Shown here piece by piece: positions 22,582 through 36,294 of a DNA stretch of 37,496 nucleotides (position 1 is the first letter of the stretch; each line of letters starts with the position of its first letter). The DNA comes from Modestobacter sp. DSM 44400. GTDB lineage: Bacteria > Actinomycetota > Actinomycetes > Mycobacteriales > Geodermatophilaceae. The notes beneath the pieces were generated by a model. It ran no database searches. It was not told the DNA's origin and saw nothing but the letters and a program-made list of their open reading frames with translations. A program made the translations under genes and the position numbers. The stretch lies in the NCBI RefSeq assembly GCF_900107175.1, contig NZ_FNOZ01000039.1:1-37496 (forward strand), read 5' to 3'.

Positions 22582-23340
22582 ATGCGCGTGGCGTTCGTAG
22601 GCAAAGGCGGTGCCGGCAAGTCGTCCCTGGCCGGGACGTTCGCCCGGGTGCTGGCTGCCACCGGGCGGCGCGTGGTGGCGCTGGACTCCGACCCGATGCC
22701 GGGAATGGCCTTCTCCCTCGGCGTGGCCCAGATCGATGCGGGCCTGCCCGACGACGCCGTCGAGGAGTTCGAAGAGACCGGCCGCCGCCGCTATCGGCTG
22801 CGCGAGGGCCTCACCGGCACCGGCGCGATCGAGCGGTACGCCGTGCGCGGCCCGGACGGCGTGCACTTCTTCCAGCTGGGCAAGGCCCGCGGCGCACGAT
22901 GGGATAACACGCGGCAGCATTTCGGCTTCCAACGGGTGCTGGACGACCTGCCCGGCGAGGACTGGAGCGTGGTGGGCGATCTGCCGGGCGGAACGCGGCA
23001 GCCGTTTCTCACCTGGGGTCGGTACGCCGAGACGTTCCTCGTCGTCGCGGAGCCGACTCCCGCTTCGCTGCTGACCGCCCGCCGGCTCGCGAGGCTGGCT
23101 GTCACCGGCAGTGCTCCGCGGGTGGTCGTCGTCGCGAACAAGGTGCGGACGCCGCGGGACGCCGAGGAGGTCGCTGAGCGGACCGGGCTGCTCCTGCTGG
23201 GCGCCGTGCCGTTCGACCCGGCGCTCGACGAAGCCGACCGGCTCGGGCGCGCCGTCCTCGATCACGACCCGACCGGTCCGACGGTCACGGCGGTACGGTC
23301 CCTGGTAGCTGCGCTGTCCACCGAGACGAGGGCCAGATGA
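22582..23340 (+). CDS. CooC/MinD-type ATPase 1 (no CxC motif)
   Basis: 252 residues with a deviant Walker A, FVGKGGAGKSSLAGTFARVL, the switch-like VVALDSDPMPG, and a NKxR nucleotide-specificity loop VVVANKVRTPRDAEEV. This is the CooC branch of the SIMIBI (MinD/ParA) ATPases, where CooC loads nickel into CO dehydrogenase. Unlike the other three copies in this island it lacks the paired metal-binding cysteines; the corresponding region reads HFFQLGKARGARWDNTRQHF. It also lacks the usual D-ME after it (VVGDLPGG). It may be a partner or regulatory subunit. The stop overlaps the next ATG by 4 bases. Confidence 0.88.
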   Translation: MRVAFVGKGGAGKSSLAGTFARVLAATGRRVVALDSDPMPGMAFSLGVAQIDAGLPDDAVEEFEETGRRRYRLREGLTGTGAIERYAVRGPDGVHFFQLGKARGARWDNTRQHFGFQRVLDDLPGEDWSVVGDLPGGTRQPFLTWGRYAETFLVVAEPTPASLLTARRLARLAVTGSAPRVVVVANKVRTPRDAEEVAERTGLLLLGAVPFDPALDEADRLGRAVLDHDPTGPTVTAVRSLVAALSTETRAR

Positions 23341-24071
23341 AGATCGCCGTGGTCGGCAAGGGTGGGTCCGGCAAGACCACCACGTCCGCCGTGCTGGCCC
23401 GCACGCTCGCGCGCTCGGGGTACGCCACCCTGGCGTTGGACTGCGACAGCAACCCCAACCTCGGCATCTCCCTGGGAATCGGCGAGGAAGCCACCGAGCG
23501 CCTGATCTCGGTGCGCGACGCCGTCGACGCCGGCGAGGAGGAACACGCCTCGAGCGCCGAGGACCTGGTGGCACGGTTCGGCATCGAGGGCCCCGACGGC
23601 GTCCGGCTGGCGGTGGTCAGCGCCATCCAGAACCCCGAACCGGGCTGCCCCTAGTGCGGCATCTCACCTGAGCAGTTGCTCGGGCAGCTCGCCGGTCCCG
23701 ACCGCGTCGTCGTCGCCGACTTCGAGGCCGGACTCGGCACCGTGTTACGCCTCGGGGACAACCCGGTCGACGTCGTCGTGATCGTCGTCGAGCCCACCGT
23801 TAAATCGCTCGAGGTGGGCCGCCGTGCGGCGGAATCCGTCCGGGAAGCGGGTCTCGGCCGGATCGTGGTCGCGGCGAACCGAGTGCGGGACGAGCAGGAC
23901 GCGGCGCGGGTACGCGCTGCCTTTCCGGGGTTGCAACCAGTACTCGTCCCCGACGACCCCGCGATCGTCGAGGCGGAGCGACGAGGCGCCGCCCCGCTCG
24001 ACGCCGCACCGGATGCCCCAGGCGTGCAAGCCCTGGTCGGGCTCGCCCACGACCTACTGCGCGCCAGCTGA
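23337..24071 (+). pseudogene. CooC-type ATPase 2, interrupted by an amber codon in its CxC motif
   Basis: ATG 23337 starts MKIAVVGKGGSGKTTTSAVL (Walker A with the signature lysine), then LALDCDSNPNLGISLG. At codon 106 (23652-23654) a TAG interrupts the motif: GCP, stop, CG. The same frame then runs on without a gap to 24071 through VVVADFEAGLGT, NRVRDEQDAARV and a normal C-terminus. If the TAG triplet is removed the motif is GCPCG, matching GCTC and GCLC in ATPases 3 and 4. The lesion therefore looks like a 3-base insertion, not a substitution. Outcomes: a dead gene, a split protein restarting at TTG 23676, or readthrough. The reading is direct; the consequence is inferred. Confidence 0.85.
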
Positions 24072-24083
24072 GCGGCGGTCGCC

Positions 24084-24400
24084 GTGGTCCGGGGGCCACG
24101 CTGCACCTCCGGATCGTGTTTCGCCGTACCCGGCCACCGACGGCTGTGGGCAGCGCACACGGTGTCGCAGTGGGGTGACATCGTCAGCACCGCCACCATC
24201 ACTCTGCTCGTCTACGAGCTCACCGGCTCCGGGCCATCGCCGTCGGCCTGTCGGTCGGCACGGTGTTCTTCAACCCGACCGCAGGACCGGTGCTGCCAGC
24301 CCTTGTCGGCACCGACATTCTGATCGTGGCGAACAGGGGCCACGTGGAACCGCCGCCGCGCTCTCCCAGGACGCCGTCGCACCGCTGGGCGGGCTGACCG
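24084..24400 (+). pseudogene. MFS transporter remnant
   Basis: About 100 residues spread over three frames. They read FAVPGHRRLWAAHTVSQWGD and STATITLLVYELTGSG, then in another frame RAIAVGLSVGTVFFNPTAGP and VLPALVGTDILIVAN, then AALSQDAVAPLGG. These match the first three to four helices of actinobacterial MFS exporters (RxLWxAxxxSxxGD, VGxxxLxxAN). The rest of the gene is absent. It is wedged between ATPase 2 and ATPase 3, so the cluster was invaded or rearranged here. Confidence 0.6.
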
Positions 24401-24437
24401 ATCGCCAGGTCACGCAGCAGGCTGTCGTGGACGAGCG

Positions 24438-25244
24438 CTACTCGTCAGCCGGCGCGCTCCGTGCGGCGCAGGACTGCAGCGCGTCGAGGGCGTCGAGCAC
24501 CTCGCCGAGCGCCCGCTGGACCTCCGGTGCGACGACTTGGAGCCCGACGGCCCCTGCGCGGTCCGCGGCCGCGACCTCTGCGTCGTAGGGCAGGACGCCG
24601 GCCAGCTCGATCCCCTCGGCGGACAGTGCATCGCGGAAGAAAGCCACGTCCTCGGCCGTGCGCGCCTTGTTGCCGACGGCCACGACGTCGGGGATGCCGA
24701 GCTCAGTGGCCAGCGCGGCGGTGCGGGCCGCGGTGAGCACGGACTTGCGCGTCGGCTCGCAGACCATCAGCAGGACGTCGGCATGGGCCAGCGTGCCCCC
24801 CGACCGGCTGAGGTGCTCCAGACCGGCCTCCATGTCCACCAACGTGACGTCGACGTCCTCGAGCGCGTCGGCCAGCAGGCTACGGACGGTCGCATGGCCG
24901 CTGCAGGTGCAACCGGCGCCCGCCGCAGCGACCTTGATGGCCGACAGTAATGTCGGCCCGGCCGGCGTCGGCCGGCCGTACTCGGCGATGAGGTCCGCCG
25001 CCGCCGCCGTACCCCCGGGCCCCACGACGGCGGCCCGCGGCAGGACGGGTACGGCCTCGGTTTCGGCGAGCGAGAGCCCCAGCGACAGTCCGAGGTTGGG
25101 ATTGGAGTCGGTGTCGATGGCAACGACGCGCCGCCCTCGCACGGCGTATTCCCGGGCCAGCAGCCCGGCGACCGTTGTCTTCCCGACACCGCCCTTGCCG
25201 ACGATGCCGAGCTTGAGTCGCAACTTCTTTTCGATGGCTGTCAT
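24438..25244 (-). CDS. CooC-type ATPase 3 (GCTC motif)
   Basis: 268 residues from ATG 25244, with an AAGGA ribosome site. Walker A is GIVGKGGVGKTTVAGLLARE, followed by VVAIDTDSNPNLGLSLGLSL. C112 and C114 (AGAGCTCSGHATVRSLLADA) match the CxC motif that in CooC1 binds metal at the dimer interface. The VDMEAGLEHLSRSGG segment and the VVAVGNKARTAEDV loop complete the CooC pattern. Established role of the family: ATP-driven nickel delivery. In a hydrogenase island without HypA or HypB, nickel delivery to the large subunit is an attractive inference. It is divergent from the small membrane-protein genes. Confidence 0.92.
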   Translation of the reverse strand: MTAIEKKLRLKLGIVGKGGVGKTTVAGLLAREYAVRGRRVVAIDTDSNPNLGLSLGLSLAETEAVPVLPRAAVVGPGGTAAAADLIAEYGRPTPAGPTLLSAIKVAAAGAGCTCSGHATVRSLLADALEDVDVTLVDMEAGLEHLSRSGGTLAHADVLLMVCEPTRKSVLTAARTAALATELGIPDVVAVGNKARTAEDVAFFRDALSAEGIELAGVLPYDAEVAAADRAGAVGLQVVAPEVQRALGEVLDALDALQSCAARSAPADE

Positions 25245-25343
25245 GTCTGGTCCTTCCCCGGTGTGCGAACGCTACTGGCGCAGATCACCTACCGGAGGCA
25301 GACTGCCAGCACGCGCCGCACCGTCGACAGGCAGGAGCTGCGG

Positions 25344-25601
25344 ATGATCGTCCTCTGGGTCATGAGCGCCATCGGGCTGCTGGTGGTGGCGCCCTTGGTA
25401 GTGCTCCTCGCCACCCAGGTCATCCGCCCGGCACTGGAGTGCGCACGCTATGCCGACGACATCCTGGAGCACGGCGTCGGCATCACCGCCGCCGTCGAAC
25501 CGGTTCCCGCGCTGGTCACCACCCGTGAGCTGACCGGCGAGGTGACCGGGAACGCCGTCGGCTACGTCGGCGCACTCCGGCGCCTCGCCGCCAGCTTCTG
25601 A
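25344..25601 (+). CDS. Small single-TM protein, hydrogenase island set A, gene 1
   Basis: 85 residues from ATG 25344, preceded by an AGGAG site 7 bases upstream. One TM helix (MSAIGLLVVAPLVVLLATQV, residues about 7-26) is followed by a cytoplasm-sized helical segment (ALECARYADDILEHGVGITA) and an amphipathic tail. No enzyme motif. It is the first of an in-phase series of small genes leading to DUF1059 and the NifU-type protein, so it probably belongs to the hydrogenase machinery, perhaps as a membrane tether. Function unknown. Confidence 0.7.
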   Translation: MIVLWVMSAIGLLVVAPLVVLLATQVIRPALECARYADDILEHGVGITAAVEPVPALVTTRELTGEVTGNAVGYVGALRRLAASF

Positions 25602-25611
25602 GGAGGCCGCC

Positions 25612-25878
25612 ATGTCCGCAGCCGCCATCGCCGCGCTCGTGGTGACGGGCGTTCTCGTTGCCACCTTGGCCTGCTATCTGCTCTGGATCCTCGTGATCCT
25701 GCGGCGCCTGACCGACACCTTCGGCAAGGTCGTGTTCGGGGTGACCGCGATCGCGCACCGCGTGCAGCCGGTCGAGGGCCTCGTCGGCGAGATCAATGGG
25801 GACCTTGTCGGCGTCGCCGACGCCCTGGAGGCACTCGCGGCCGACCTCGATCCCCACCGCGCGGCCCGGGCATCATGA
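25612..25878 (+). CDS. Small single-TM protein, set A, gene 2
   Basis: 88 residues, with AGGAGG just upstream of ATG 25612. An N-terminal TM helix (AALVVTGVLVATLACYLLWI) is followed by RRLTDTFGKVVFGVTAIAHR and an amphipathic helix with DLVGVADALEALAADLD. The post-TM part is clearly similar to the third small protein of the other set at 33898 (shared GKVxFGVxAI and GALAEL-like blocks), so the two sets arose by duplication. It probably forms helical bundles at the inner membrane face. No known family. Confidence 0.75.
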   Translation: MSAAAIAALVVTGVLVATLACYLLWILVILRRLTDTFGKVVFGVTAIAHRVQPVEGLVGEINGDLVGVADALEALAADLDPHRAARAS

Positions 25879-25903
25879 ACGTCCTGACGAATGGGAGCAG
25901 TCG

Positions 25904-26083
25904 ATGGCCGTAGAATTTCGCTGTCAGGACGTCGGAGTCGCCTGCCGGAACGTCGCACGGGCGGAGACCCCCGACGAGCTGGTCGCCGCGGTCGCCGCCC
26001 ACGCGAAAGCCAAGCACGGGGTCGAACTCAACCAGACCTTGATCGACTACGCCGTCACCAAGGTCCGGCCCGCGGGTGACTGA
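25904..26083 (+). CDS. DUF1059 small protein
   Basis: 59 residues: FRCQDVGVACRNVARAETPD then ELVAAVAAHAKAKHGVELNQ. The two cysteines, the AET-x-E-E-L helix and the AHxxxxHG pattern define DUF1059, a small cytosolic family of unknown function often found in actinobacteria. The start ATG 25904 excludes an earlier in-frame start within the previous gene. Its stop overlaps the GTG of the NifU-type gene, so it is translated with that Fe-S gene. A link to metal or Fe-S handling is inferred from this coupling. Confidence 0.82.
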   Translation: MAVEFRCQDVGVACRNVARAETPDELVAAVAAHAKAKHGVELNQTLIDYAVTKVRPAGD

Positions 26084-26648
26084 GCAGCTCCCCGACAGAC
26101 CGCCCGCGAATCCGCCGGACGCCTCGCTTGCGGCACTCGGACCCCTCCTCGACCGGCTCGAGGAGCTGCTGGATGATGTCGAGGGACTGGACGAGGGCGT
26201 GCAGAACCGCGTCTTCGAGCTGCTCGACGGCGTTGATGCGGTACACCGGCTGGCCGTCACGCGATTGGCCGACGCCCTGGCGGATGATCTCGGGTCGGTG
26301 CGGCGCAGCGACTCGGCGATCGACTGGTTGTTCGAGGCCTACGGCGTCGGCGTCGACGATGTGGACGCAGCCTCGGCGGCACTGGAGCAGATTCGCCCTT
26401 ACCTGCACGAGCACGGTGGCGAGGTGGACGTGCTGGCCGTGCAGCACGGCGTGGTGCAGGTCCGCCTGGCGGGCGCCTGTTCCGGATGCACGTCGGCTGC
26501 CCAGACGCTGCGTCACGGGGTGGAGGAAGCGCTACGGGAGAATCTGCCCGGTTTCTTAGCGATGAAGGTGCTGTCCGACGACGGCGCAGCAGTGCACCCG
26601 CCGCCGTCGTTGCCGGTGCTGCTGCAGATCACGCCGCGGCCGACCTGA
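26076..26648 (+). CDS. NifU C-terminal-domain Fe-S scaffold protein
   Basis: 190 residues from GTG 26076. Residues about 100-175 form the NifU-like (Nfu) domain with LEQIRPYLHEHGGEVDVLAV and the cluster-binding C135/C138 in LAGACSGCTSAAQTLRHGVE. Such domains carry a transient [4Fe-4S] cluster to apo-proteins. Residues 15-75 are a helical region (LAALGPLLDRLEELLDDVEG) not present in ordinary Nfu; it may dock onto a partner. The hydrogenase small subunit needs three Fe-S clusters, a natural client. It converges on the M52 protease gene 30 bases away. Confidence 0.92.
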   Translation: MTEQLPDRPPANPPDASLAALGPLLDRLEELLDDVEGLDEGVQNRVFELLDGVDAVHRLAVTRLADALADDLGSVRRSDSAIDWLFEAYGVGVDDVDAASAALEQIRPYLHEHGGEVDVLAVQHGVVQVRLAGACSGCTSAAQTLRHGVEEALRENLPGFLAMKVLSDDGAAVHPPPSLPVLLQITPRPT

Positions 26649-26678
26649 CCTGGGTACTCGTCGCAACCGGCGGCCTGG

Positions 26679-27176
26679 TCACGATGACACCACCTCATGC
26701 AGGATCAGCAGCCGCCGCACCTCCCGGACGGCGACCGGTACCGCAGCCAGCGCCGCAGCCGACAGTCCGTACCGGGGTTCCTCGGTATCGGTGGTCTGTA
26801 CACCGACGACCAGCGTGGTGACCGGCAGCACGCCCAGTCCCAGGGCGACCATCAGGGCCCGGGCCGGCGTGGCCAGGTGCATGTCGGCGAGCTCGTCGCG
26901 ACGCCGGTCGACGCTCAGCGTCCTGACGTCCAGTATGTCGGGCCGCTGCACCACGACGCTGCCCGGTGGCCGGCCCAGGTCGACCGCGTCGACCACCAGC
27001 AGCACGTCCGCGGCGACCCGCATCAACTCCTGCACGAGATGGATGCCGCCGATGCCGACCTCCAGCACCCGCACCCCGTCCGGCACCGGCTCGGCAAGCA
27101 GAGACTGCGCCACCGCGGGACCGACGCCGTCATCGGCACGCAAGACGTTGCCGAAGCAAGCCACGACGGCGTTCAC
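26679..27176 (-). CDS. Hydrogenase maturation protease (peptidase M52, HupD/HyaD type)
   Basis: 165 residues from GTG 27176 (GTG 27188 also possible; neither has a clear ribosome site). The motif ACFGNVLRADDGVGPAVAQS, then LEVGIGGIHLVQEL, D63 in LLVVDAVDLGRPPGSV and H100 in LADMHLATPA place the nickel ligands as in HybD (acidic residue near 16, Asp, His). It clips the C-terminal peptide of the large subunit once nickel is in place. Its start is only 30 bases from the divergent TPR gene, so they share a compact promoter region. Confidence 0.93.
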   Translation of the reverse strand: MNAVVACFGNVLRADDGVGPAVAQSLLAEPVPDGVRVLEVGIGGIHLVQELMRVAADVLLVVDAVDLGRPPGSVVVQRPDILDVRTLSVDRRRDELADMHLATPARALMVALGLGVLPVTTLVVGVQTTDTEEPRYGLSAAALAAVPVAVREVRRLLILHEVVSS

Positions 27177-27206
27177 AGCAGCGACCACGGTGGAAGAGTA
27201 GGCACC

Positions 27207-28433
27207 GTGGCACAGCCGGAGCAGGACGTCCTGACCCGGCGCCTCGCGCAGTACCCGGTCGAACGGTATCCGGTGCAGCACGCGACGACACAATTCCATC
27301 TCGGCTCGGTGCTGCTGCACGCCGGTGAGAGCGAGCCGGCCCGACACGCGCTGACCCGCGCCCGGGACCTGTTCGCACGCGCCGGCCTGCAGCTGGAGCA
27401 GGCAAAGGCGACCGTCATGCTCGGTGTCGCCCTGCGCACCGCCGGTCGGCTCGACGAGGCAGCGGCCGCCTTCACGACCGCGTTCGCCGACCTCGCCACG
27501 CTCGACCAGCCGGCCGAGCAGGCGGCTGCTGCCTACAACCTCGGCCTCGTGCTGCACGGCGATGGCAACGTGAGCGCCGCGCACGCTGCCTGGACCGGTG
27601 CCCGCGAGCTCTTCCTCACGGCGGGACATCCGGCCCGGGCCGCGGCAGCGGCACGTGACCATGGCGCCTCGCTGCTCACGACCGGCGCGGTCGAGGCCGC
27701 ACTGCCCCTACTGGAGCAGGCCGCCGAGCTCGCCGAGCGCGCCGGGGACGACCCGGGCCTGGCCGCGGCCGCGAACGTCCTCGGGCTGGCCCACCTCGCG
27801 GCGCAGGAGCCATCCGCCGCGGTCGCGGCGTTGCACCGTGCACTGGGTGGCTGCCCACGGAGCGTGCGGCCGGCCGACCACGCGATGATCCAGGCCAACC
27901 TGGCCCTTGCGCATGAACAGGGCGGCAACCCGGCACGCGCCCGGCTCGCCGCCGGACAGGCACTGGCGGTGCCGGGCGCCCCCGCACCGGTGCGCGAGCA
28001 GGCTCGGCAGCTGCTGGCCCGGCTGCCAGGGCAGACACACGAGGACCTGCTGACCGTCCTGGACGCCGAGCACCGCGACCAGTGGGCTGTGGTTCTTGGC
28101 GCGGAGGTGCGGCGGGCGGCGGAGCTTCCCGCCGGGCCGCGGTGCGCCCTGGTCAGCGGATTCCTGGACGGCCTGCTGGCACGGCCTGGGACATCATACG
28201 ATCTGGCGGAGAGCCTGCTGCAGGTCGTGCTCGAGCTGCCACCGCAGACGTACGAGCTGATCGTCTCCACCGTCGTCGACGGCTGCGCCGGTCGCCCGGA
28301 ACAGGACGCCGCACGGCTCCGCGCGGTTCTCGGCTCGGCCATGGCGAGGTTCGCCCTGCCGCAATGGCAACGACTTGTCGCGACCCTCAACGCCGCGGCG
28401 AAGGCTGCCGGACAGCCGGCCACATGGAGGTGA
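27207..28433 (+). CDS. TPR-repeat protein of the hydrogenase island
   Basis: 408 residues from GTG 27207. The first about 270 residues are helical repeats of TPR type (for example TTQFHLGSVLLHAGESEPAR; AKATVMLGVALRTAGRLDEA; AAAYNLGLVLHGDGNVSAAH; NVLGLAHLAAQEPSAAVAAL), seven or so in a row, predicting a solenoid that binds other proteins. The last 130 residues are another helical domain of unknown type. No signal peptide or TM helix. It is coupled to the BirA-fold gene by a 10-base overlap. Likely an assembly scaffold for the hydrogenase; the specific partner is unknown. Confidence 0.88.
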   Translation: MAQPEQDVLTRRLAQYPVERYPVQHATTQFHLGSVLLHAGESEPARHALTRARDLFARAGLQLEQAKATVMLGVALRTAGRLDEAAAAFTTAFADLATLDQPAEQAAAAYNLGLVLHGDGNVSAAHAAWTGARELFLTAGHPARAAAAARDHGASLLTTGAVEAALPLLEQAAELAERAGDDPGLAAAANVLGLAHLAAQEPSAAVAALHRALGGCPRSVRPADHAMIQANLALAHEQGGNPARARLAAGQALAVPGAPAPVREQARQLLARLPGQTHEDLLTVLDAEHRDQWAVVLGAEVRRAAELPAGPRCALVSGFLDGLLARPGTSYDLAESLLQVVLELPPQTYELIVSTVVDGCAGRPEQDAARLRAVLGSAMARFALPQWQRLVATLNAAAKAAGQPATWR

Positions 28434-29194
28434 CCGGCGATTTGAGCGCCGCCGAGGTGGCCGCCGCGCTCGGTGACCGGCCGGTGCGCACCTACCCCGC
28501 GCTGCTCTCCACCGAGGCAGTGGCCATGGCGTGGGCCCGGGAGGGGGCGCCGTCCGGCGCGGTGGTCGTCGCGGACTACCAGGCATCCCCGCGCGGCCGC
28601 GGCGGGCTGCCCTGGATTGTCCGTCCGGGCGCCGGTCTCGGTTTCACGCTGCTCGCCCGGCCCGGCCTCCCCCCCGAACGCGAGGGCTGGCCCTACGTTG
28701 CGGCATTGCTGGCGCTGTACGACGTCCTCGGCACCGACGGCGGTGGCCTCATCTGGCCCGACACCGTGCACGCCGCCGGCGGTGCCGCGCTGGCCAGGCT
28801 GGGGGTCTACGTCGAGCTCGGCCAGGCGCGCACCGAGTGGGTGAGCGCAACGGTGCTCGTCGAAGACACCCTCCCGCCCCGAGCGGGGCTGCTGGCCCAG
28901 CTCGTGGATGCCCTGGAACAGCGGCTGGCCGCACCCTCCGATCAGGTGTTGGCCGACTACCTCCCGCGCTGCACCACGCTGGGCCGCCGGCTTCGGGCCC
29001 GGCTCATCCCGATGGGACCTGGCGGGCCGGAGGTCACCGGCGAGGCGGTCGACGTACTGGCCGACGGCGCGCTGGTCCTGCGCACCGCGCGCGGCAACCG
29101 GGTCGCCGTCCCGCCGCACAACCTGGGGTTGCTGGAGGAGCCGCAGGGGCCGATCGAGCCACCGCGGCGGCTCTTCGGCCAGTCGAAGGCCTAG
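28424..29194 (+). CDS. BirA/LplA-fold protein without catalytic lysine
   Basis: 256 residues from ATG 28424. The order of segments follows biotin protein ligase: an LLSTEAVAMAWAREGAPSGA helix, VVADYQASPRGRGGLPWIVR in place of the BirA loop ending GRGRxGRxW, GLGFTLLAR for the core strand, and a C-terminal SH3-like unit (GEAVDVLADGALVLRTARGN). The position of the invariant KWPND is GLIWPDT, so the catalytic lysine is gone. It should therefore not be a normal biotin ligase. It converges on the degenerate M52-like gene with a 4-base overlap. It may bind a cofactor or act as an assembly factor; the role is not known. Confidence 0.75.
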   Translation: MEVTGDLSAAEVAAALGDRPVRTYPALLSTEAVAMAWAREGAPSGAVVVADYQASPRGRGGLPWIVRPGAGLGFTLLARPGLPPEREGWPYVAALLALYDVLGTDGGGLIWPDTVHAAGGAALARLGVYVELGQARTEWVSATVLVEDTLPPRAGLLAQLVDALEQRLAAPSDQVLADYLPRCTTLGRRLRARLIPMGPGGPEVTGEAVDVLADGALVLRTARGNRVAVPPHNLGLLEEPQGPIEPPRRLFGQSKA

Positions 29195-29967
29195 CTCGGC
29201 ACCGCCTCGACGGCCTCCAGACGATCGAGCTCCTCGACCAGCGCCCACCACAGGCCCCAGTCCCGGTGGTCCATCCCCGCGCTGCCCGCATTCTGGGCGA
29301 TGCCCAGCTTCAGCTGGTCCCGGCAGGCAAAGGTGCGCCCCCACCGGCCGTCCCGGTCCAGCCCCGCCAACTCCTCCAGGAGCGCGCGCAACGCGGTCAG
29401 CGCGGTGGAGTCCGCAAGCCGGTCATCGCCCACCAGCGGCCACAGCTCCCCGGCGAGCGTGAGCAGCGGTGCACGACGGACCTCGGCCCGTACGAGGTCC
29501 AGGGCCACCTCCAGGCCGGCCGTGGCCGGCCGGCTCAGCCCCTCCCCCGATCCGGTGACCGCCGGCTCCACCTCTACCGCGACCGTCCGGGGCGGCAGGG
29601 CACCCAGCGCCGCCGCGACCTCGACGACGAGGTCCGGGTGCACGTAGCCGGTCACGGCGTCGCCGACCGCGGCCTGCACCTGCGCCGGCGTCAACTCGGG
29701 ATGGTCGAGGCGACGGCGCAGCACCGTGCCGGGCGAGTGCCCGCGTCGCACGGCACTGACGAGAACCAGCGCCGCAGGACGGAGGTCCTCCAGCCGCTGG
29801 GCCACGGCGACGGCGCCGTAGTGCAGCTCCTCGACGAGCACCCCGGGGCCGAGGTCCTCGGCCTGCAACCGCTCGACGGCGAGCCGCCCCAGGTCCAGGT
29901 CGCTCTGGAACAGCTCGCTGACCCCGCCGACGAGGACACCTATCCACGCCGGCTGCGGTCTAGTCAC
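29191..29967 (-). CDS. Degenerate M52-like protein with C-terminal extension
   Basis: 258 residues from GTG 29967, which overlaps the large-subunit stop (29960-29962), so it is translationally coupled to it. The first about 165 residues resemble the M52 maturation-protease fold: WIGVLVGGVSELFQSDLDLG in place of GNxLxxDDGxG, ALVLVSAVRRGHSPGTV where the nickel-ligand Asp has become Ser, and TGYVHPDLVVEVAAALGALP with the His retained. The remaining 90 residues (LLTLAGELWPLVGDDRLADS to RDWGLWWALVEELDRLE) are a separate helical part. With ligands missing it is more likely a chaperone or stable partner of the large subunit than a protease. Fold call is moderate. Confidence 0.68.
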   Translation of the reverse strand: MTRPQPAWIGVLVGGVSELFQSDLDLGRLAVERLQAEDLGPGVLVEELHYGAVAVAQRLEDLRPAALVLVSAVRRGHSPGTVLRRRLDHPELTPAQVQAAVGDAVTGYVHPDLVVEVAAALGALPPRTVAVEVEPAVTGSGEGLSRPATAGLEVALDLVRAEVRRAPLLTLAGELWPLVGDDRLADSTALTALRALLEELAGLDRDGRWGRTFACRDQLKLGIAQNAGSAGMDHRDWGLWWALVEELDRLEAVEAVPS

Positions 29968-31861
29968 CGCCGCACGAGCAGGTGTTGACCTCGCGGACGA
30001 TCTCGCCGGCGCCGGTGTGGGCATGGGTCGTGCACGGCATGCACGGGTCGAAGCTGCGGATGGCGCGCAGCATGTCGATGCTGGTGAAGCCGGCCGGGTC
30101 CGAGAGGTCCTCGATGATCGGCGTGTTCATCACCGCCTCCTCGTAGGGACCCGGTTGACCCCAGGGGTCGCGCGGTGAGGCGTTGATCGTCGAAGGAGTG
30201 ACGATCTGGTAATTGGTGATCTTTCCCTTGTCCATGACCAGGTGGTGGGTGAGCCAGCCCCGTCCGGCACCCCACCAGCCGACCGACACCCGCTCGTCCT
30301 GGGGGATCGCCTTCTCCAGCTCTTCCGGGTTCAGCGCCGCCACCTTCCGCTCCCCCTGCTTGAAGAGCTTGTACGCCTCGAACAGGCTCTCCAGGCCGAC
30401 CAGCTGGCTGAACAGGTAGTGGTATGCCCGACCGCGGTTGCGCTCGAAGGCGTTCCAGCGCTCCGGCACGTGCCACTCGACCTCGCGTTCGCCGCGCTCT
30501 CCCTTCGGGATGAGAAGGCGCATGCTCGAGCCGGTCGAGGAGATGAAGTCGCTGGTCGGCGTCTTCTGGGCCAGGGCGCTGATCAGCAGCCGGGAGTAGC
30601 AGCCGGCCTCGACGACCTGGCGGTCCCACCGCGGCGCGGTCGACCAGGTGTACTTCTCCTTCCAGTCGCGGGCACCAGGCATCGGCAACGTCCGCTTGTT
30701 CCACGGGTGGTACGGCGAGATCGGGTTGCCGAGGGGGTCGGTCGGGAAGCGGCTCGTCTGCGACTCCTCGTAGTAGGAGTGCTCGACGAACTCCTCCAGG
30801 CCGATGTTGATGTCGGTGAGCCGGGTCGTGACGAGCTTGCCGTCCAGCACGACTCCCGGAGTTGACCAGCGCTTCTCACCCCAGGCGTTGCAGTTCTCAT
30901 ACGTCGCGTCGTAGGCGTAGGGGTCATCCCAATAGCCGGGGTCGATGTGGTTGGTCGGGCGGTGGCCGACGTACTGGTAGCGCTCGTCCGCCTCATAGAA
31001 GAAGGCCGGAATGTCGTCCCAGACCGCCAGCATCCGCTGGGCGTAGTCGAAGATCTTCCCGAGCTTCGAGTGGTACTCGTTCAGGCTCTGCAGGGTGAGC
31101 GTCGTGGAGACACCGCCCGGGACGACGTTCTGCGGGTGGGGGTACTTGCCGGTCAGGATGACGACCATCTCGCGGGAGAGCCGGGTGAACTCCAGCCCCT
31201 CCCGGTAGAGGCTGCCGGTCAGCGGGTTCAGCGCGGTCATCAGCTCGGCCATGGTCCGGAAGCCGTGGATGTCGACGTTGGGGCAGGCCCAGCTCTCCGC
31301 CTTCGGCCACAGTTCCGGGTTGGAGGACCGGATGACCGACTCGGAGTAGTCGGGCCCGGCGAGCAGGTAGAGGTGCAGCGGGTTGTCGTAGCCCATCTCC
31401 GCGGCCTCGGTCATGTTGCGCACGACGGTGCCCAGCGGTGGCGGCTTGATGCCCATGGCCTGCTCGATGGCGTACGCCGCGCAGTGGGCGTGCACCCCCC
31501 CACAGACACCGCAGGCACGGGAGGACACGAAGATGGCATCGCGGGGGTCGCGGCCCATGAGGATCACCTCATAGCCGCGGAACAGGGTCGCCTGGGAGTG
31601 CGAGTCGAGGTACTGGCCCTTGTCCAGGTCCGCCGTCACGTGCACCGCGAGTGCTCCCGCGATCCGGGTGACCGGGTCCATGTTGAGGTCCTTGATGTGC
31701 CCGTTGCGGGCCACCAGGCGCTCGATGCGCTCCCGTCGCTCGGTCTCGTCCATCCCGACGTCCGGCTTGGCGATCGTGACGTCGTAGGGGTTGGGAATGC
31801 CGCCGCGCAGCGTCGCGCGGCCGCGGTCATCGAACTCCACCGGCAGGGTCTTGAAGCACAT
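29960..31861 (-). CDS. [NiFe]-hydrogenase large subunit (uptake type)
   Basis: 633 residues. The L1 motif is SSRACGVCGGVHAHCA with C117 and C120 and the nearby H124; the L2 motif is RSFDPCMPCTTH with C607 and C610. These four cysteines hold the Ni-Fe(CN)2CO site. About 20 residues follow H613 (AHTGAGEIVREVNTCSCGGD) and should be removed by the M52 protease. The general layout (RIAGALAVHVTAD; TPGVVLDGKLVTTRLTDINI; NASPRDPWGQPGPYEEAVMN) resembles the group 1h high-affinity enzymes of actinobacteria but is clearly diverged, so 1l or another new group is possible. It reads after the small subunit with 21 bases between. Confidence 0.96.
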   Translation of the reverse strand: MCFKTLPVEFDDRGRATLRGGIPNPYDVTIAKPDVGMDETERRERIERLVARNGHIKDLNMDPVTRIAGALAVHVTADLDKGQYLDSHSQATLFRGYEVILMGRDPRDAIFVSSRACGVCGGVHAHCAAYAIEQAMGIKPPPLGTVVRNMTEAAEMGYDNPLHLYLLAGPDYSESVIRSSNPELWPKAESWACPNVDIHGFRTMAELMTALNPLTGSLYREGLEFTRLSREMVVILTGKYPHPQNVVPGGVSTTLTLQSLNEYHSKLGKIFDYAQRMLAVWDDIPAFFYEADERYQYVGHRPTNHIDPGYWDDPYAYDATYENCNAWGEKRWSTPGVVLDGKLVTTRLTDINIGLEEFVEHSYYEESQTSRFPTDPLGNPISPYHPWNKRTLPMPGARDWKEKYTWSTAPRWDRQVVEAGCYSRLLISALAQKTPTSDFISSTGSSMRLLIPKGERGEREVEWHVPERWNAFERNRGRAYHYLFSQLVGLESLFEAYKLFKQGERKVAALNPEELEKAIPQDERVSVGWWGAGRGWLTHHLVMDKGKITNYQIVTPSTINASPRDPWGQPGPYEEAVMNTPIIEDLSDPAGFTSIDMLRAIRSFDPCMPCTTHAHTGAGEIVREVNTCSCGGD

Positions 31862-31882
31862 GCGTGAGCTCCTCGGTCCGGT

Positions 31883-33247
31883 TCAGCTACGGATGCGCGG
31901 GCTGCCGCCGCTGGGGGCCTCGTCGGGACGCTTGCCCCAGACGTCGGCATCGTTACGCGCCGTGTCACCGGCGCGGCGCATCTTGTCGTAGAACTTGTGG
32001 CCCACGTCGGCCAGCGCAGACGGTTCGGTCTTCTCCCGGGAGAAGGCACTGGGCGAGGCACCCTGGCGGTCCCAGCGCACCTCACGGTTGAGGTTGTCGT
32101 TGCTGAACTTGCGCAGCGGCCGGATGACGCTGCCGACCAGCCGCGACACGGTGGTCGAGGCCAGCGAACCGGGCGGCCGCTTGTAGAAGGGCGTGAACTT
32201 GTCCGGGAAGCCGGGCATGGTGCAGCCGATGCACGCGCCACCGGCATTCATGCACCCCCCGAGACCCTTGATGGCCCCGCGGGAGGTGATGTTGCAGTTG
32301 ACGACCGGCCCCCAGCAGCCGATCTCGACGAGGCACTCCGGGTCGCCGAACTCGTGGGCGAAGGTGCCTTCCTCGTAGTAGGCGCCGCGAACGCACCTGC
32401 GGTGCACGGTCTCGCCGAACAGCCATGCCGGGCGGCCCAGTTCGTCGAACTCCGGCAGCGGGCCGAAACCCTGGAGGAAGTACAGCACCGCCGCCACCGT
32501 CTCGGTGAAGTTGTCACCGATCGGCGGGCACCCGGGAACGTTGACGACCGGCACGCCGAGCACCGACCGGTAGTCCTTGCCGAGGAAGTCCATCAGGCTC
32601 ATCGCGCCGGTGGGATTGCCCGCCGCGGATGGGACGCCGCCCCAGGTGGCGCACGTGCCGATCGCGATCATCGCGGCGGCGTTCGGGGCCAGCCGGGCGA
32701 CCCACTCGGTGGAGCTGACCGGGCGCAGCTCGCCGTCGGCACCCCATGGCTCCTCGCCGGTGGCCGACCAGTAGCCCCCCGATGCATGGGCCACCACCTC
32801 GTCGGCGATCGAGCCCTCGAGGATGACGACATAGGGTGCGTCGAGAGTGCCCTCGATCGCCTCCTCGGCCGGCCGCAGATAGTGCGGTCCGGACTCCATG
32901 TTGAGAACCGGGTGGTGCAGGATCACCCGCGGAAGGCCCGGATGGGCGCCGAGCATCATGCTCTCCACCGACGGGTTGGTCGCCCCCGTCACGGCGACGC
33001 TGCAGCCGTCGCAGCTCATGCCGGCGAACCAGAAGGCGTGCACCTTCTCCAGCGGCCCGAACCGGGTGGCCACCGTCGCCGTCGCCGCCGAGGCGAGCAT
33101 GTCCTCGGTCATCGCGCCGGACGGCATCCCGAACGCCCCGAGGGAGCTGCTGTCGTGGAAACCCGTGATGGGCCCGAGCGCATCGAGCAGCTCCTGCGCG
33201 GGGGTGCGCGCGGCGAGCTGGGGTGAACTGGTCTGCCGATCTGCCAT
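31883..33247 (-). CDS. [NiFe]-hydrogenase small subunit (uptake type, no Tat signal)
   Basis: 454 residues from ATG 33247 with an AGGAG site. The proximal-cluster ligands are C79 and C82 (AGMSCDGCSVAV), C199 (IGTCATWGG) and C240 (NVPGCPP). The other two clusters use H282 or nearby, C285, C305, C311, C318, C332, C339 and C342 (GGCMNAGGACIGCTMPG). There is no twin-arginine signal; the first about 60 residues are a soluble extension. About 100 residues after PGFPDKFTPFYKRPPG form a polar C-terminal extension without a TM helix. Electrons from H2 pass through these clusters to an unknown acceptor. It is the first gene of the catalytic transcript. Confidence 0.95.
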   Translation of the reverse strand: MADRQTSSPQLAARTPAQELLDALGPITGFHDSSSLGAFGMPSGAMTEDMLASAATATVATRFGPLEKVHAFWFAGMSCDGCSVAVTGATNPSVESMMLGAHPGLPRVILHHPVLNMESGPHYLRPAEEAIEGTLDAPYVVILEGSIADEVVAHASGGYWSATGEEPWGADGELRPVSSTEWVARLAPNAAAMIAIGTCATWGGVPSAAGNPTGAMSLMDFLGKDYRSVLGVPVVNVPGCPPIGDNFTETVAAVLYFLQGFGPLPEFDELGRPAWLFGETVHRRCVRGAYYEEGTFAHEFGDPECLVEIGCWGPVVNCNITSRGAIKGLGGCMNAGGACIGCTMPGFPDKFTPFYKRPPGSLASTTVSRLVGSVIRPLRKFSNDNLNREVRWDRQGASPSAFSREKTEPSALADVGHKFYDKMRRAGDTARNDADVWGKRPDEAPSGGSPRIRS

Positions 33248-33274
33248 CTGCTGCTCCTGTGCCGGGCCCAGGGA

Positions 33275-33290
33275 TGTGCAGTGCCTCACA
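33275..33290. promoter_or_regulatory. CRP/GlxR-like operator between hydrogenase and small TM genes
   Basis: The 16-mer TGTGCAGTGCCTCACA matches the TGTGA-N6-TCACA consensus of CRP/GlxR regulators at nine of ten defined positions. It lies 28 bases upstream of the small-subunit ATG and 82 bases upstream of the divergent GTG at 33372. That is close enough to the hydrogenase start for repression or for overlap with its transcription start. Direct sequence observation; binding is inferred. Confidence 0.45.
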
Positions 33291-33371
33291 TCGCGTCGTA
33301 GGTGCAACATACAGATAGCGGGTGTTCGCGTGTAGCGTGCGCGGCCTGGGTGCGGCTCATCTGGAGGCTCC

Positions 33372-33623
33372 GTGAACGGTTGGATCCTGGGCTACGTCAT
33401 CGCGGCGGCCGTGGTCGTCATCGTGGTGGTGGTGGTGCTGATGCTCATCTCCGGCGCTCGGCAGACCGCCGGCAAGGTGGAGGCGATCTTGACCGGCCTG
33501 GACGATGTCCGGGACGGAACGGCCGGCTTGTGGCAGGTCGGCGACACTGCTGCAACCGCACAGCGAATCGTGGACGCCGCGGCTGATGCCCGCACCAGCC
33601 TGACCCCGGGCGGCCGCTCGTGA
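33372..33623 (+). CDS. Small single-TM protein, set B, gene 1
   Basis: 83 residues from GTG 33372, with a GGAGG site just upstream. The N-terminal TM helix is almost pure valine/isoleucine (AAAVVVIVVVVVLMLI), followed by a soluble amphipathic part (ARQTAGKVEAILTGLDDVRD) ending with GGRS. Its stop overlaps the next GTG by 4 bases. It is divergent from the hydrogenase small-subunit gene and shares its promoter region, implying co-regulation. No known family; a membrane anchor or electron-path accessory is possible. Confidence 0.75.
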   Translation: MNGWILGYVIAAAVVVIVVVVVLMLISGARQTAGKVEAILTGLDDVRDGTAGLWQVGDTAATAQRIVDAAADARTSLTPGGRS

Positions 33624-33901
33624 ATGACCAGGGCTACTGGTTCCTCGCCCTCGGGCTGGGTCTCGTCGTGGCCGTCGTCGTCGTGGTGCTGCTGGAGATG
33701 CTGCTGCGGCAGGTGCACCGCATCGAGCGTGGTGCCGGGGGAGTCTGGCGGGCCGGCAAACAGGTCGCCGGCAACACGGCGACCACCTGGCTGCTCGGTG
33801 AGACCTCCGACCGGCTGGACGACCTGATCGAGGAGGCGGGCCGCCACGCCGAGCTGCTGACTCCGCCGCCGGCACCGGCCGCCAGGCATGCAGTCCGATG
33901 A
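33620..33901 (+). CDS. Small single-TM protein, set B, gene 2
   Basis: 93 residues from GTG 33620, with its stop overlapping the next ATG. One TM helix (WFLALGLGLVVAVVVVVLLE) is followed by an amphipathic region with LRQVHRIERGAGGVWRAGKQ and TSDRLDDLIEEAGRHAELL, then a Pro-rich tail. The post-TM helices alternate charge in a way suited to coiled bundles with its neighbours. Function unknown. Confidence 0.75.
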   Translation: MNDQGYWFLALGLGLVVAVVVVVLLEMLLRQVHRIERGAGGVWRAGKQVAGNTATTWLLGETSDRLDDLIEEAGRHAELLTPPPAPAARHAVR

Positions 33902-34197
33902 CGGCCCTGCTGGTCACGCTCACGATCGTGGAGATCGTCCTGGTGCTGGCCGTCCTCGTCTATTACCTGGCGCGTATCGCGGGCTCCCTGCGCCGTACGT
34001 CGACACTGCTGGGCAAGGTGGCATTCGGAGTGCGCGCGATCGAGACCCAGTGCTCGATCATCGGCCCCTCTGTGCTCACCGTCAATGAGCAGCTCGGCGG
34101 GATCGCGGGCGCGCTCGCCGAGCTCACCGACCTGGCCGACGCCGTCGTCGGCCCCACCCCGACAGCCGGCGCCACGTCGACGGCTCGGCAGCGCTGA
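33898..34197 (+). CDS. Small single-TM protein, set B, gene 3
   Basis: 99 residues from ATG 33898. TM helix LTIVEIVLVLAVLVYYLARI, then RRTSTLLGKVAFGVRAIETQ and a helix with LGGIAGALAELTDLADAVV. It is paralogous to the protein at 25612 (same length of helix, GKVxFGVxAI block and ALxEL ending). This links the two small-gene sets and argues for one conserved role in the hydrogenase island, such as a membrane platform. The Cys-rich winged-helix gene starts one base after its stop. Confidence 0.77.
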   Translation: MTALLVTLTIVEIVLVLAVLVYYLARIAGSLRRTSTLLGKVAFGVRAIETQCSIIGPSVLTVNEQLGGIAGALAELTDLADAVVGPTPTAGATSTARQR

Positions 34198-34198
34198 C

Positions 34199-34585
34199 GT
34201 GGACCAATTACATCCACCGAAGTCCGAGGCCCTGCGCGCCCTCTATTGGCGCAGCGAGATCCTGCAGGTCATGTACTGGCTGCGTGGTGAAGGGCTCGGC
34301 GACGTCGTCGACGCCGCACTGCTCGAGCGCTTTCTCGGTGTCGACGCCGCGGTGGGCACCGGTTACCTCGACCGGCTCGTCGAGGAGGGTTATCTCGACC
34401 GCGCCCGAGCCGATTATGTGCTGTCGGAGCAGGGCCTGGCGGAGGGCAGGACCGAGTTCGCCCTCTCCTTCGCCGATCTGACCCGCCCCGCGCACGGCGA
34501 GTGCAGCGCGGACTGCTGGTGCCAGAACTCCGCGGAGGAGGCCATCGCCTGCGCCGCCGAGCGGGACCCGCGGCCCGCCCGGTGA
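34199..34585 (+). CDS. Winged-helix protein with Cys-rich C-terminus
   Basis: 128 residues from GTG 34199. Residues about 8-80 look like a winged helix (ALRALYWRSEILQVMYWLRG; LLERFLGVDAAVGTGYLDRL; VEEGYLDRARADYVLSEQGL). The C-terminus has HGECSADCWCQNS plus a further AC, a C-x3-C-x-C pattern that could hold an Fe-S cluster or zinc. It overlaps the PadR gene by 4 bases. A redox- or metal-sensing regulator of the hydrogenase genes is a reasonable inference; a structural role in maturation is the alternative. Confidence 0.7.
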   Translation: MDQLHPPKSEALRALYWRSEILQVMYWLRGEGLGDVVDAALLERFLGVDAAVGTGYLDRLVEEGYLDRARADYVLSEQGLAEGRTEFALSFADLTRPAHGECSADCWCQNSAEEAIACAAERDPRPAR

Positions 34586-34953
34586 CCGCCCGCCGGGAAG
34601 AGAACGCCGTCGGGCTGCCGCGCAACTATCTGCGCCCGTGCCTGCTACTGCTGCTCGCCGAGGGAACAGCCCACGGCTACGAGCTGCTTGAGCAGATGAG
34701 CACACTGGGCATCGACCGGGTGGATCCCGGCGGGCTGTACCGCTGCCTGCGCGCGATGGACGAGGACGGACTGGTCCGCTCGGCGTGGGAGCCGTCCACG
34801 TCCGGACCGGCCAGGAGAACCTACGAGCTGACCGACGAGGGCCGCCAGTGGCTGCACGTCGCCGCCGGTTCACTGGCGGAGGTGGTCCGTACGCTGGATA
34901 GGTACCACGCCCGCTATGCCGAGATCGCCGAGCGGCACGAGCCCGTCCGGTGA
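34582..34953 (+). CDS. PadR-family transcriptional regulator
   Basis: 123 residues from GTG 34582. The PadR winged helix is seen in LRPCLLLLLAEGTAHGYELL, GIDRVDPGGLYRCLRAMDED and GLVRSAWEPSTSGPARRTYE, where the wing ends in the family's R-x-Y-x-L/LT-x-E-G (YELTDEGRQWL). The C-terminal helix (VVRTLDRYHARYAEIAERHE) should dimerise. It overlaps both neighbours by 4 bases and is co-transcribed with set B and ATPase 4. It probably regulates the divergent hydrogenase promoter; effector unknown. Confidence 0.88.
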   Translation: MTARREENAVGLPRNYLRPCLLLLLAEGTAHGYELLEQMSTLGIDRVDPGGLYRCLRAMDEDGLVRSAWEPSTSGPARRTYELTDEGRQWLHVAAGSLAEVVRTLDRYHARYAEIAERHEPVR

Positions 34954-35726
34954 GGCTGGCCGTGGCCGGCAAGGGTGGCGCCGGCAAGACGACGATCAGC
35001 GCCACGCTCGCCCGACTTGCCGCGCGATCGGGCCGACCGGTGGTGGCCCTCGACGCCGACGCCAACCCCAACCTGTCCACGGCGCTGGGAATGTCTCCCG
35101 ATGTGGCCGCCGGCCTGGGGCCCGTCCCGGCGTCGCTGGTGTCACGCCGCATCGGCGGAGCCGGTCTCAACCAGCCCATCGACGACGTGCTGAACCGTTA
35201 CACCGGGACCGGCCCCGACGGCGTGCGCCTGCTCGGCATGGGTGCACCAGCGCATGCCGACGAGGGGTGCCTGTGCTCCGCGCACGCCGTCGTGTCCGCG
35301 CTGCTGGAGGACCTCGGCGCGCCCGAACGGTTCGTCGTGGTGGATATGGAGGCCTCGCCCGAGCACCTCAGCCGCGGGACCGTCCGGCACGTCGATGCGA
35401 TCTGCCTGGTCGCCGAGCCCTACTACCGCTCGCTGGAGACGGTGCGCCGGATGGCGGCGCTCGTCGCCGAGCTGCCGGTGCCCTGGGTCGCCGTGGTCGC
35501 CAACAAGGTGCGGTCCGCGCAGGACGAGGAGGCGGTCCGCGAGTTCTGCGACCGGCACAGCTTCTCCCTGGCCGGCGTCGTGCCGTGGAACGATGAAGTG
35601 GTTGCGGCCGACCGTGCGCGGGTGCCCGTCGTGGAATGGCCACCGGCCCATTCGGTGGTGGCTGCGCTGACCGACCTTGCCGGCGAGCTCGATCGGAGCG
35701 TGCGGAGCGCCAGCACGGCCGGATGA
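34950..35726 (+). CDS. CooC-type ATPase 4 (GCLC motif)
   Basis: 258 residues from GTG 34950, overlapping the PadR stop. Walker [21 protein letters not shown], then [17 protein letters not shown], the metal pair C107/C109 in [20 protein letters not shown], the [15 protein letters not shown] segment and the [15 protein letters not shown] loop. It is the most complete CooC-like copy with ATPase 3. It closes the hydrogenase island: the next recognisable coding DNA is transposon debris. Probable nickel-loading or assembly ATPase for the hydrogenase; not CO dehydrogenase, since no cooS/cooF is here. Confidence 0.92.
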
Positions 35727-35901
35727 CCATGCGCTATCCGGAACGGGCCTCCGGCCGTGCTTCGAGTGCCTCGGCCGGTAAAGATCTGGAACTCGGCGAT
35801 GAATCCGCTGAACGCGGGCAGCCAGAGGGAGGCCGGGCACCAGTGCGGGCCAGACCGCGGAAACACCTCCGGCCAGGCATCCGGCGGGGTAACTGGTCAG
35901 G

Positions 35902-36294
35902 TCACGCGGTAGCGGGCAGCCAAGGATTTCCCTCGGCGAGCATGGTGAGGTCGTCGAAGAAGTGGGACCCGTTTTTCGGGCAGGGGCGAGGTAGGAGCGG
36001 ATCTGGCAGAACGTCTCGGCTCCGGTCAGTGCCCGCAGGCAGCCGGAGACCTTCTGCCGGACCTTGATCATCCTGATCTCGCGCTCAGCGGCGTTGTTGT
36101 CGACGGGAACGGCGAAGTCGGCGGTGAACCGCAAGTGGTCGGCTTGGCGATGCAGCGGGCGACGGGCCAGCGCGTGGTGCTTGTTGGCCAGCTTCCCGAC
36201 CCGGTCGCGGTTCTCGCTGATGCCGATGTTGGCTGCCGAACGCAACAACCGGGTGTGCCGGTCCAGCTCGACCGGGTCCAGGGTGGTGTCTCGT
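35902..36294 (-). pseudogene. IS66-family transposase C-terminal remnant
   Basis: The minus strand reads [40 protein letters not shown], then [20 protein letters not shown] and [20 protein letters not shown], the hallmark IS66 C-terminal block. One base is missing near 35970-35976. After it the proper ending [21 protein letters not shown]-stop is found in the next frame, finishing at 35902. The 5' part of the gene is cut off at about 36294 by the left end of the ISAs1 element. Dead transposase. Confidence 0.85.

Follow-up and report, generated by a model that had tools for sequence, protein, structure and literature searches.

The window analyzed here is a stretch of 37,496 nucleotides from Modestobacter sp. 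DSM 44400 (NZ_FNOZ01000039.1); it makes up an entire contig (C66) in a 5.0-Mb genome of 182 contigs with a completeness of 99.93%. It carries an island of genes around a [NiFe]-hydrogenase, including four genes, called copies 1 to 4, for predicted ATPases of the CooC type. Our interest is in an in-frame TAG in copy 2, which we predict to be a codon for selenocysteine (Sec; U in motifs), and in the part that the four ATPases may play in the supply of nickel to the hydrogenase. The features are listed below, beginning with the ATPases.

22582 to 23340, forward strand: ATPase copy 1, CooC-like, without CxC motif; its own stop overlaps the start of copy 2
23337 to 24071, forward strand: ATPase copy 2, CooC-like, predicted selenoprotein (CxU) with one in-frame TAG and the terminator TGA (14 orthologs compared)
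23652 to 23654, forward strand: TAG at the second cysteine (Cys) of CxC in copy 2, predicted selenocysteine codon
23667 to 23684, forward strand: hairpin CCTGAGC-AGTT-GCTCGGG in copy 2, predicted bacterial selenocysteine insertion sequence (SECIS) element (from alignment, pair count and fixed codons)
24438 to 25244, reverse strand: ATPase copy 3, CooC-like, with CxC (GCTC)
34950 to 35726, forward strand: ATPase copy 4, CooC-like, with CxC (GCLC); 6 of 20 orthologs have TGA in place of the first Cys codon
22161 to 22475, reverse strand: hypC-like hydrogenase chaperone (PF01455, E 1e-22; TIGR00074)
25796 to 26083, forward strand: DUF1059 protein (PF06348)
26076 to 26648, forward strand: NifU-domain protein (PF01106)
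26679 to 27200, reverse strand: HycI/HybD-type hydrogenase maturation protease with uncertain start (TIGR00072, 96.6 bits for a slightly longer piece; PF01750)
27207 to 28433, forward strand: TPR protein (PF13424)
28424 to 29194, forward strand: conserved cluster protein without Pfam match, possibly the BirA homolog of the published group 1m cluster (see below)
29191 to 30024, reverse strand: second protease-like protein (TIGR00072 below cut-off)
29960 to 31861, reverse strand: [NiFe]-hydrogenase large subunit, group 1m type (PF00374; closest solved structure HofG, 5aa5)
31883 to 33310, reverse strand: [NiFe]-hydrogenase small subunit (PF14720, PF01058)
33620 to 33901, forward strand: small protein with a single membrane helix predicted by eye, conserved in relatives
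33898 to 34197, forward strand: small protein with a membrane helix predicted by eye, conserved in relatives
34501 to 34953, forward strand: PadR-family regulator (PF03551)

All four ATPases match Pfam models of the CbiA/MinD type and contain the deviant Walker A motif GKGG[AVS]GK. A second loop motif reads NKVR, NRVR, NKAR and NKVR in copies 1 to 4, respectively. The top relative of known structure is in each case CooC1 (PDB 3kje), with E values of 1e-26 for copy 4, 4e-21 for copy 3, 1e-10 for copy 2 and 2e-8 for copy 1; the homology and structure comparisons of copy 2 were run on the Cys form of a relative (L063). The same holds for the fold: CooC1 is also the top match of the models predicted for copy 4 and for copy 2 in its L063 form (mean predicted local distance difference test scores of 90.8 and 85.4, respectively). 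The CxC motifs of copies 3 and 4 align with the CxC of CooC1, and both cysteines are present in 12 of 12 copy 3 genes and in 14 of 20 copy 4 genes. No CxC occurs in the 12 copy 1 genes. CooC1 is described in PMC6006190, as far as the portion on its metal site goes, as binding one nickel per dimer, in competition with zinc, through Cys112 and Cys114 of the two monomers. From these comparisons the four genes are firmly predicted to encode CooC-type ATPases. A tree of 61 rows groups each copy into a single clade, with a support of 99/91 for copy 4 and 100/100 for the other three. CooC proteins of CO dehydrogenase (CODH) fall among these clades; the reference from Acetoanaerobium (L179), for instance, lies directly after a CO dehydrogenase gene. 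The forks between the clades are weak and come with a long-branch warning.

The ATPases belong to the same superfamily as MinD and ParA, and MinD, FleN and Soj were also matched, more weakly, in profile and fold comparisons. They could accordingly be positioning proteins, which would for example place the hydrogenase at the membrane. The best MinD match of copy 4, however, has an E value of 8e-7 compared with 1e-26 for CooC1, and the CxC, or its form with a stop codon, is conserved in copies 2 to 4. The margin of CooC1 is small for copy 1, for which the ATPase-type HypB of Thermococcus is close behind (E 1.5e-7 versus 2.2e-8). We consider a positioning function very improbable. A preliminary description of this DNA had raised a placement with plasmid or chromosome partition proteins, which is not borne out, the best solved relative of each copy being CooC1. 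Its four ATPase open reading frames are all found at the positions listed above, and its account of the CxC motif (kept in two copies, interrupted in one, absent in one) proved correct: copies 3 and 4 have it, copy 2 is interrupted in it by the TAG, and copy 1 is without it. The Walker A motif that it described as shared is indeed present in all four copies, while the shared NKxR loop applies to copies 1, 3 and 4 but not to copy 2, which has NR instead of NK.

The reading frame of copy 2 in the window contains a single stop, the TAG at 23652-23654, and is open on both sides of it. Of the 14 orthologs of copy 2, four have TAG as the codon of the second Cys: those of the window, of two Blastococcus (B. 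saxobsidens and B. mobilis) and of one Geodermatophilus (G. chilensis). Six others have TGA there, and the remaining four encode Cys. Three of the TGA genes (L016, L017, L025) have TGA at the first Cys too, and in copy 4 it is the first Cys of CxC that is replaced by TGA in 6 of 20 genes. The 58 ATPase genes compared, some of them partial, comprise 14,024 codons; within their first 235 codons all 19 in-frame stops fall on cysteines of the CxC motif. No stops were found inside the matches of HydL (26 matches), HydS (26), copy 1 (13) or HypC (14); the remaining cluster genes have a few, none of them aligned to a Cys.

A nonsense mutation or a sequencing error would also leave one stop in an otherwise open frame, and hypD and hypF are likewise unfound in the genome of the window (see below), so that the island is perhaps decaying. 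Against such an origin, stops stand at the same codon in 10 of 14 copy 2 genes, which represent several lineages and come from both isolates and metagenome bins, and they recur in 6 of 20 copy 4 genes; all of them are confined to the CxC cysteines. Furthermore, the ratio of nonsynonymous to synonymous substitution rates is 0.09-0.22 before the stop and 0.10-0.34 after it (21 pairs of seven genes); these values indicate purifying selection on both sides. It is unlikely that copy 2 is broken, and we give hardly any credence to a pseudogene or a sequencing error. If the TAG were instead a true stop, copy 2 would yield two polypeptides, a P-loop half and a C-terminal half, which associate with each other; a possible restart codon, TTG, lies just past the stop at 23676. 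Yet the codon alternates with Cys and TGA, the frame is continuous in the Cys forms of L015, L019 and L024, the genes with a double TGA would have two stops only one codon apart, and the codons after the stop are fixed. These observations make two associating polypeptides very unlikely.

A 7-bp hairpin starts 15 nt downstream from the first base of the copy 2 stop. The sequence CC[TC]GAGC-AGTT-GCTCGG follows the stop in all ten stop-bearing copy 2 genes, and the seven pairs of the hairpin hold in 98.6% of the alignment cells. Codons 112-115 (GAG CAG TTG CTC) are identical in these ten genes, although a single codon is kept at only 10 of 71 invariant residues, codons 112-115 included. In the four Cys copies of copy 2 the AGTT loop is lost and 6, 5, 3 and 4 of the seven pairs are kept, which means that the hairpin in the Cys copies is decayed rather than cleanly absent. 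The TGA genes of copy 4 have a different hairpin, which is paired in 87% of the cells and has one compensatory pair. The position of the stops and the conserved hairpin suggest that UAG and, in the relatives, UGA would be decoded as selenocysteine. UGA-selenocysteine was rejected for copy 2 of the window itself; the codon there is TAG, and the case for selenocysteine was made only by the relatives.

Mukai et al. 2016 is said to be the original source for the use of UAG for selenocysteine in the Geodermatophilaceae. A tRNA-Sec with the anticodon CUA is reported for three genomes of this family (PMC5330540), and the UAG-selenoproteins named there in the text sections are formate dehydrogenase, a protein with a UGSC motif and AhpC, the latter encoded with UAG in B. 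saxobsidens DD2. They have in common with copy 2 a TAG at a Cys/Sec site, a hairpin that follows it and the bacterial family; unlike copy 2, none of the proteins so named is a P-loop ATPase. The genome of the window contains a similar case: the gene for the alpha subunit of formate dehydrogenase has a TAG (G000:C98:47089-47091, L225) aligned to Sec140 of E. coli FdhF. TAG also terminates 4 of the 17 island genes, so that any recoding would have to be local.

CobW-related proteins, presumably a P-loop metal-chaperone family, include a selenoprotein that comes closest to copy 2. It is the nearest family listed in a 2026 review of 119 prokaryotic selenoprotein families (PMC13188914), but has a UxxC motif and is not of the CooC/MinD type; no ATPase of the CooC, MinD or ParA type appears among the names of the 119 families, and the words CooC, MinD and ParA are absent from the main text of the review. 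A literature search, which covered mostly titles and the subscription literature thinly, gave, among the titles listed, none pointing to a CooC-type, hydrogenase-maturation or P-loop nickel selenoprotein. By these comparisons copy 2 is likely to represent a new selenoprotein family. Translated with the standard code, these genes fall into two halves, and such a family is therefore easily missed.

Several observations speak against selenocysteine at this site. Two of the Cys copies retain as many as 5 or 6 of the seven hairpin pairs, the covariation in the hairpin is slight, and no SECIS family of Rfam matches. The folding energy of the hairpin is barely below that of shuffled sequence (z -2.3 to 0 in the ten genes); single-sequence folding energies were rejected as evidence. 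The loop with the motif of copy 2 has low confidence in the predicted model. Finally, tRNA-Sec, SelA, SelB and SelD were not found in the 975,951 bases (overlaps included) of the 5.0-Mb genome that were searched, a result which neither supports nor refutes the decoding; ARAGORN recovered selC of E. coli as a control. Still, selenocysteine is the best reading of the codon that the preliminary description had taken for an interruption of copy 2, a reading that the description had not suspected.

The large subunit of the hydrogenase has as its nearest solved structure HofG, the group 1h enzyme of Cupriavidus, with 459 bits compared with 189.5 for the next. The gene content of the island is that of group 1m: adjacent small and large subunits, HybD, NifU, CooC-type ATPases, TPR protein, DUF1059 protein and two small membrane proteins. 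Group 1m was described in 2022 from polar desert metagenomes (PMC9561532); its published cluster has adjacent subunits, HybD, an FeS assembly protein, a CooC-type ATPase, TPR and DUF1059 proteins and two small membrane proteins, and in addition a BirA homolog. The predicted hydrogenase of the window matches group 1m, an assignment made by gene content. Group 1l was rejected, given that the gene content fits 1m. A CooC-type gene in this cluster is already in print (PMC9561532), where a single such ATPase is reported; four copies, in-frame stops, selenium and missing hypA/hypB are not mentioned in the section on the group 1m cluster. No other paper on group 1m hydrogenases was found in the literature from 2021 on.

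Genome contigs were scanned for related loci, of which 24 were obtained; many of their genomes are metagenome bins. Copy 4 is present in 19 of the 24, and four of the five loci without it are contigs of 3.6-7.3 kb. All four copies occur in 11 loci (L008-L013, L015, L019, L024, L025 and L027). For L009 and L024, copy 1 was completed from L166 and L167 of the same genomes, and in L009 both copy 2 and copy 4 are broken into two pieces. L016 and L017 have only copies 1, 2 and 4. As a contrast set we used the 78 other genomes of a 393-genome class sample whose hydrogenase is 38-45% identical to that of the window and is taken as group 1h. Forty of their clusters were examined, each over 20 kb except for one of 8.5 kb. 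None of the 40 contains any of the four ATPases at E <= 1e-3, whereas hypA is present in 36 and hypB in 28 of them. A weak copy 4 match of some kind occurs in 14 of the 78 genomes. The group 1h cluster of Cupriavidus has hypF, C, D, E, A and B and no annotated CooC. In the 393-genome sample a search with copy 4 matched 44 genomes, that of the window included, and the best match outside the latter had 73 bits compared with 550 in it. A plasmid search with copy 4 gave two records, and the two weak relatives inspected, L147 from the class search and L057 from the plasmid search, are both without CxC. This analysis indicates that the ATPases travel with the predicted group 1m hydrogenase; homologous clusters without them, which the preliminary description had raised as a point against its proposal, are not general, apart from two exceptions considered below.

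The ATPases of the island share with the CooC of Ni-CODH the deviant Walker A motif, the aligned CxC, the size and the fold. They differ from it in that they are linked to a hydrogenase and that there are four paralogs, one of which has no CxC; no Ni-CODH (PF03063) was found in any of the 25 genomes, the one with the window included. In addition, Cys is replaced by a predicted selenocysteine in 10 of 14 copy 2 and 6 of 20 copy 4 genes.

In a tblastn search the window contained no hypA and no hypB, and neither gene was found in any of the 24 group 1m loci. The absence of CODH, hypA and hypB that had been noted at the outset thus holds for CODH in the whole genome and for hypA and hypB in the window, but not for the remainder of the genome. 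There, a second, group 1h-like hydrogenase is present on contig C98 at about 78.7-88.9 kb (L002), and its cluster contains the only hypA and hypB matches of the genome, plus DUF5947, DUF6084, hypC and DUF6390. Among the genomes of the 24 relatives, hypB exceeds the cut-off in two and hypA in five, with one of the five being of half length (G013); the other four (G001, G014, G019 and G024) also carry a group 1h hydrogenase. Neither gene is over cut-off in 19 of the 24 genomes, 12 of which have hypD. The isolates Geodermatophilus chilensis B12 and Blastococcus mobilis DSM 44272 have hypC, hypD, hypE and hypF beside the ATPases; their genomes gave no hypA and only sub-cut-off matches of the hypB model (46 and 56 bits). 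In all, ten genomes besides the two over the hypB cut-off have such weaker matches, from 19.6 to 75.8 bits compared with a cut-off of 121.2, which we tentatively take for other G3E GTPases. Since 19 of the 24 relatives are without hypA and hypB over cut-off, a nickel route free of HypA and HypB is likely, to judge from gene content.

It is also conceivable that nickel reaches the group 1m enzyme by way of HypA/HypB, where these are present, or unaided, and that the ATPases only assist assembly. A single hypA and a single hypB are present in the genome of the window, and genomes with CODH but without cooC exist according to the part of PMC6006190 on their distribution. On the other hand, hypA and/or hypB lie in the cluster or on the contig of the group 1h hydrogenase in this genome and in G001, G014, G019 and G024, and 19 of the 24 genomes lack both genes over cut-off. 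We regard this explanation as unlikely. Alternatively, the ATPases could function in Fe-S cluster assembly or in a NifH-like reductive activation of the hydrogenase, and not with nickel. The cluster does contain a NifU-domain gene, fold matches to NifH/BchL are also strong, and profiles of Mrp/NifH match weakly. NifU-domain genes, however, also occur in 29 of the 40 group 1h clusters, all without these ATPases; among solved structures CooC1 matches each of the four copies best, and the CxC aligns to the Ni/Zn cysteines of CooC1. Furthermore, nickel insertion would be otherwise unserved in the 19 genomes without hypA/hypB. A function in Fe-S assembly or reductive activation is in our view doubtful.

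We think it fairly probable that the CooC-type ATPases, with copy 2 containing selenocysteine at UAG, form a set that inserts nickel into the group 1m hydrogenase in place of HypA/HypB. By analogy to CooC1 with its cysteines, each ATPase dimer would hold Ni(II) between its CxC (or CxU/UxU) pairs. Copies 3 and 4 would contribute a Cys pair, copy 2 Cys-x-Sec or, in three genomes, Sec-x-Sec, and copy 4 Sec-x-Cys in six genes. Once the Fe(CN)2CO part has been installed, binding and hydrolysis of ATP by the dimers may drive the nickel into the large subunit. Copy 1, which has no CxC, would be a non-binding partner subunit, and selenium at the site could plausibly guard against lasting oxidation in an aerobic cell. 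The more general proposal is a selenium-based nickel chaperone, in which CooC-type ATPases grip nickel via selenocysteine (CxU, UxU, UxC), with UGA in several Actinomycetota and UAG in the Geodermatophilaceae, and replace HypA/HypB for group 1m; for this we see an even chance.

The presumed task, delivery of nickel to a [NiFe] enzyme driven by a nucleoside triphosphate, is that of HypA/HypB, but HypB is a G3E GTPase, unlike the ATPases described here. A precedent for a P-loop ATPase that replaces the GTPase HypB is the ATPase-type HypB of Thermococcus (Mrp/MinD family, PDB 3vx3 and 5aun), as outlined in part of PMC9164220. That protein works together with HypA, in contrast to the route predicted here, and its match to the ATPases is weaker than that of CooC1 (E 4.5e-4 for copy 4, in addition to the value for copy 1 given above; none for copies 2 and 3 at 1e-3). 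If the proposal is true, a nickel-handling site would contain selenium in two paralogs of the same cluster, and the selenoprotein family would be one that lies outside the usual redox folds. One orthologous site would move between UGA, UAG and Cys, and the published UAG-selenocysteine code of the Geodermatophilaceae would gain a further natural substrate. It would also mean that nickel is inserted into a [NiFe]-hydrogenase without HypA/HypB, via ATPases related to those of CODH, in bacteria presumed to subsist on hydrogen from the air.

A number of results weigh against this nickel route. Locus L014 has no copy 4 at the usual place, and in G010 a second group 1m-like hydrogenase (56% identical; C4 550-570 kb, L178) has no ATPase in the 20 kb examined. 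The hypA and hypB of the window's own genome could conceivably be used by the group 1m enzyme as well, and 8 of the 19 genomes with neither gene over cut-off have sub-cut-off matches of the hypB model (19.6 to 55.7 bits). No completeness values accompany the genomes of the 24 relatives. Moreover, hypD, and hypF over cut-off, were not found in the genome of the window (G000), and hypD and hypF were likewise unfound in eight group 1m genomes (G002, G003, G004, G007, G009, G013, G017 and G018), which leaves the known Fe(CN)2CO route incomplete in these genomes; among the 78 group 1h genomes hypD is missing in three (G026, G068, G070). This gap could reflect misses in the assemblies, a maturation of a new sort or inactive hydrogenases. 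It lowers the confidence that the enzyme of the window is active. The selenocysteine reading is unaffected, since it rests on many genomes. Together, the distinct maturation route that the preliminary description had proposed is supported by the CooC type of the ATPases, their linkage to the hydrogenase, the lack of Ni-CODH and the 19 of 24 genomes without hypA/hypB, and is qualified by the hypA and hypB in the window's own genome.

An ATP-binding cassette (ABC) importer, consisting of solute-binding protein, permease and ATPase, was observed together with DUF6390 in or beside hydrogenase clusters, mostly those without hypD (L165, at G000:C98 about 75-80 kb, L013, L059, L063, L162 with L009, L163 and L175). 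The module lies beside hypC in five genomes without hypD (G000, G003, G004, G009 and G018) and beside copy 4 in G007. As a substitute for HypDEF it was rejected; G019 has the module and hypD together. At L172 9791-10494 (G013:C267) the half-length HypA-like match lies directly before a DUF6390-like stretch, with no hydrogenase in the 14 kb examined.

An alpha-glucosidase gene adjoins the island. The best named relatives of this one gene are from Modestobacter, Geodermatophilus, Blastococcus and Klenkia, with 78-86% identity; Modestobacter and Klenkia we take to be members of the Geodermatophilaceae, the family in which this gene most likely places the window. Transposase-like open reading frames, recognized by eye, lie close to the two contig ends (2-271, part of 35142-36248, and 36395-37090). 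They may account for the contig breaks, and they suggest that the island is mobile.

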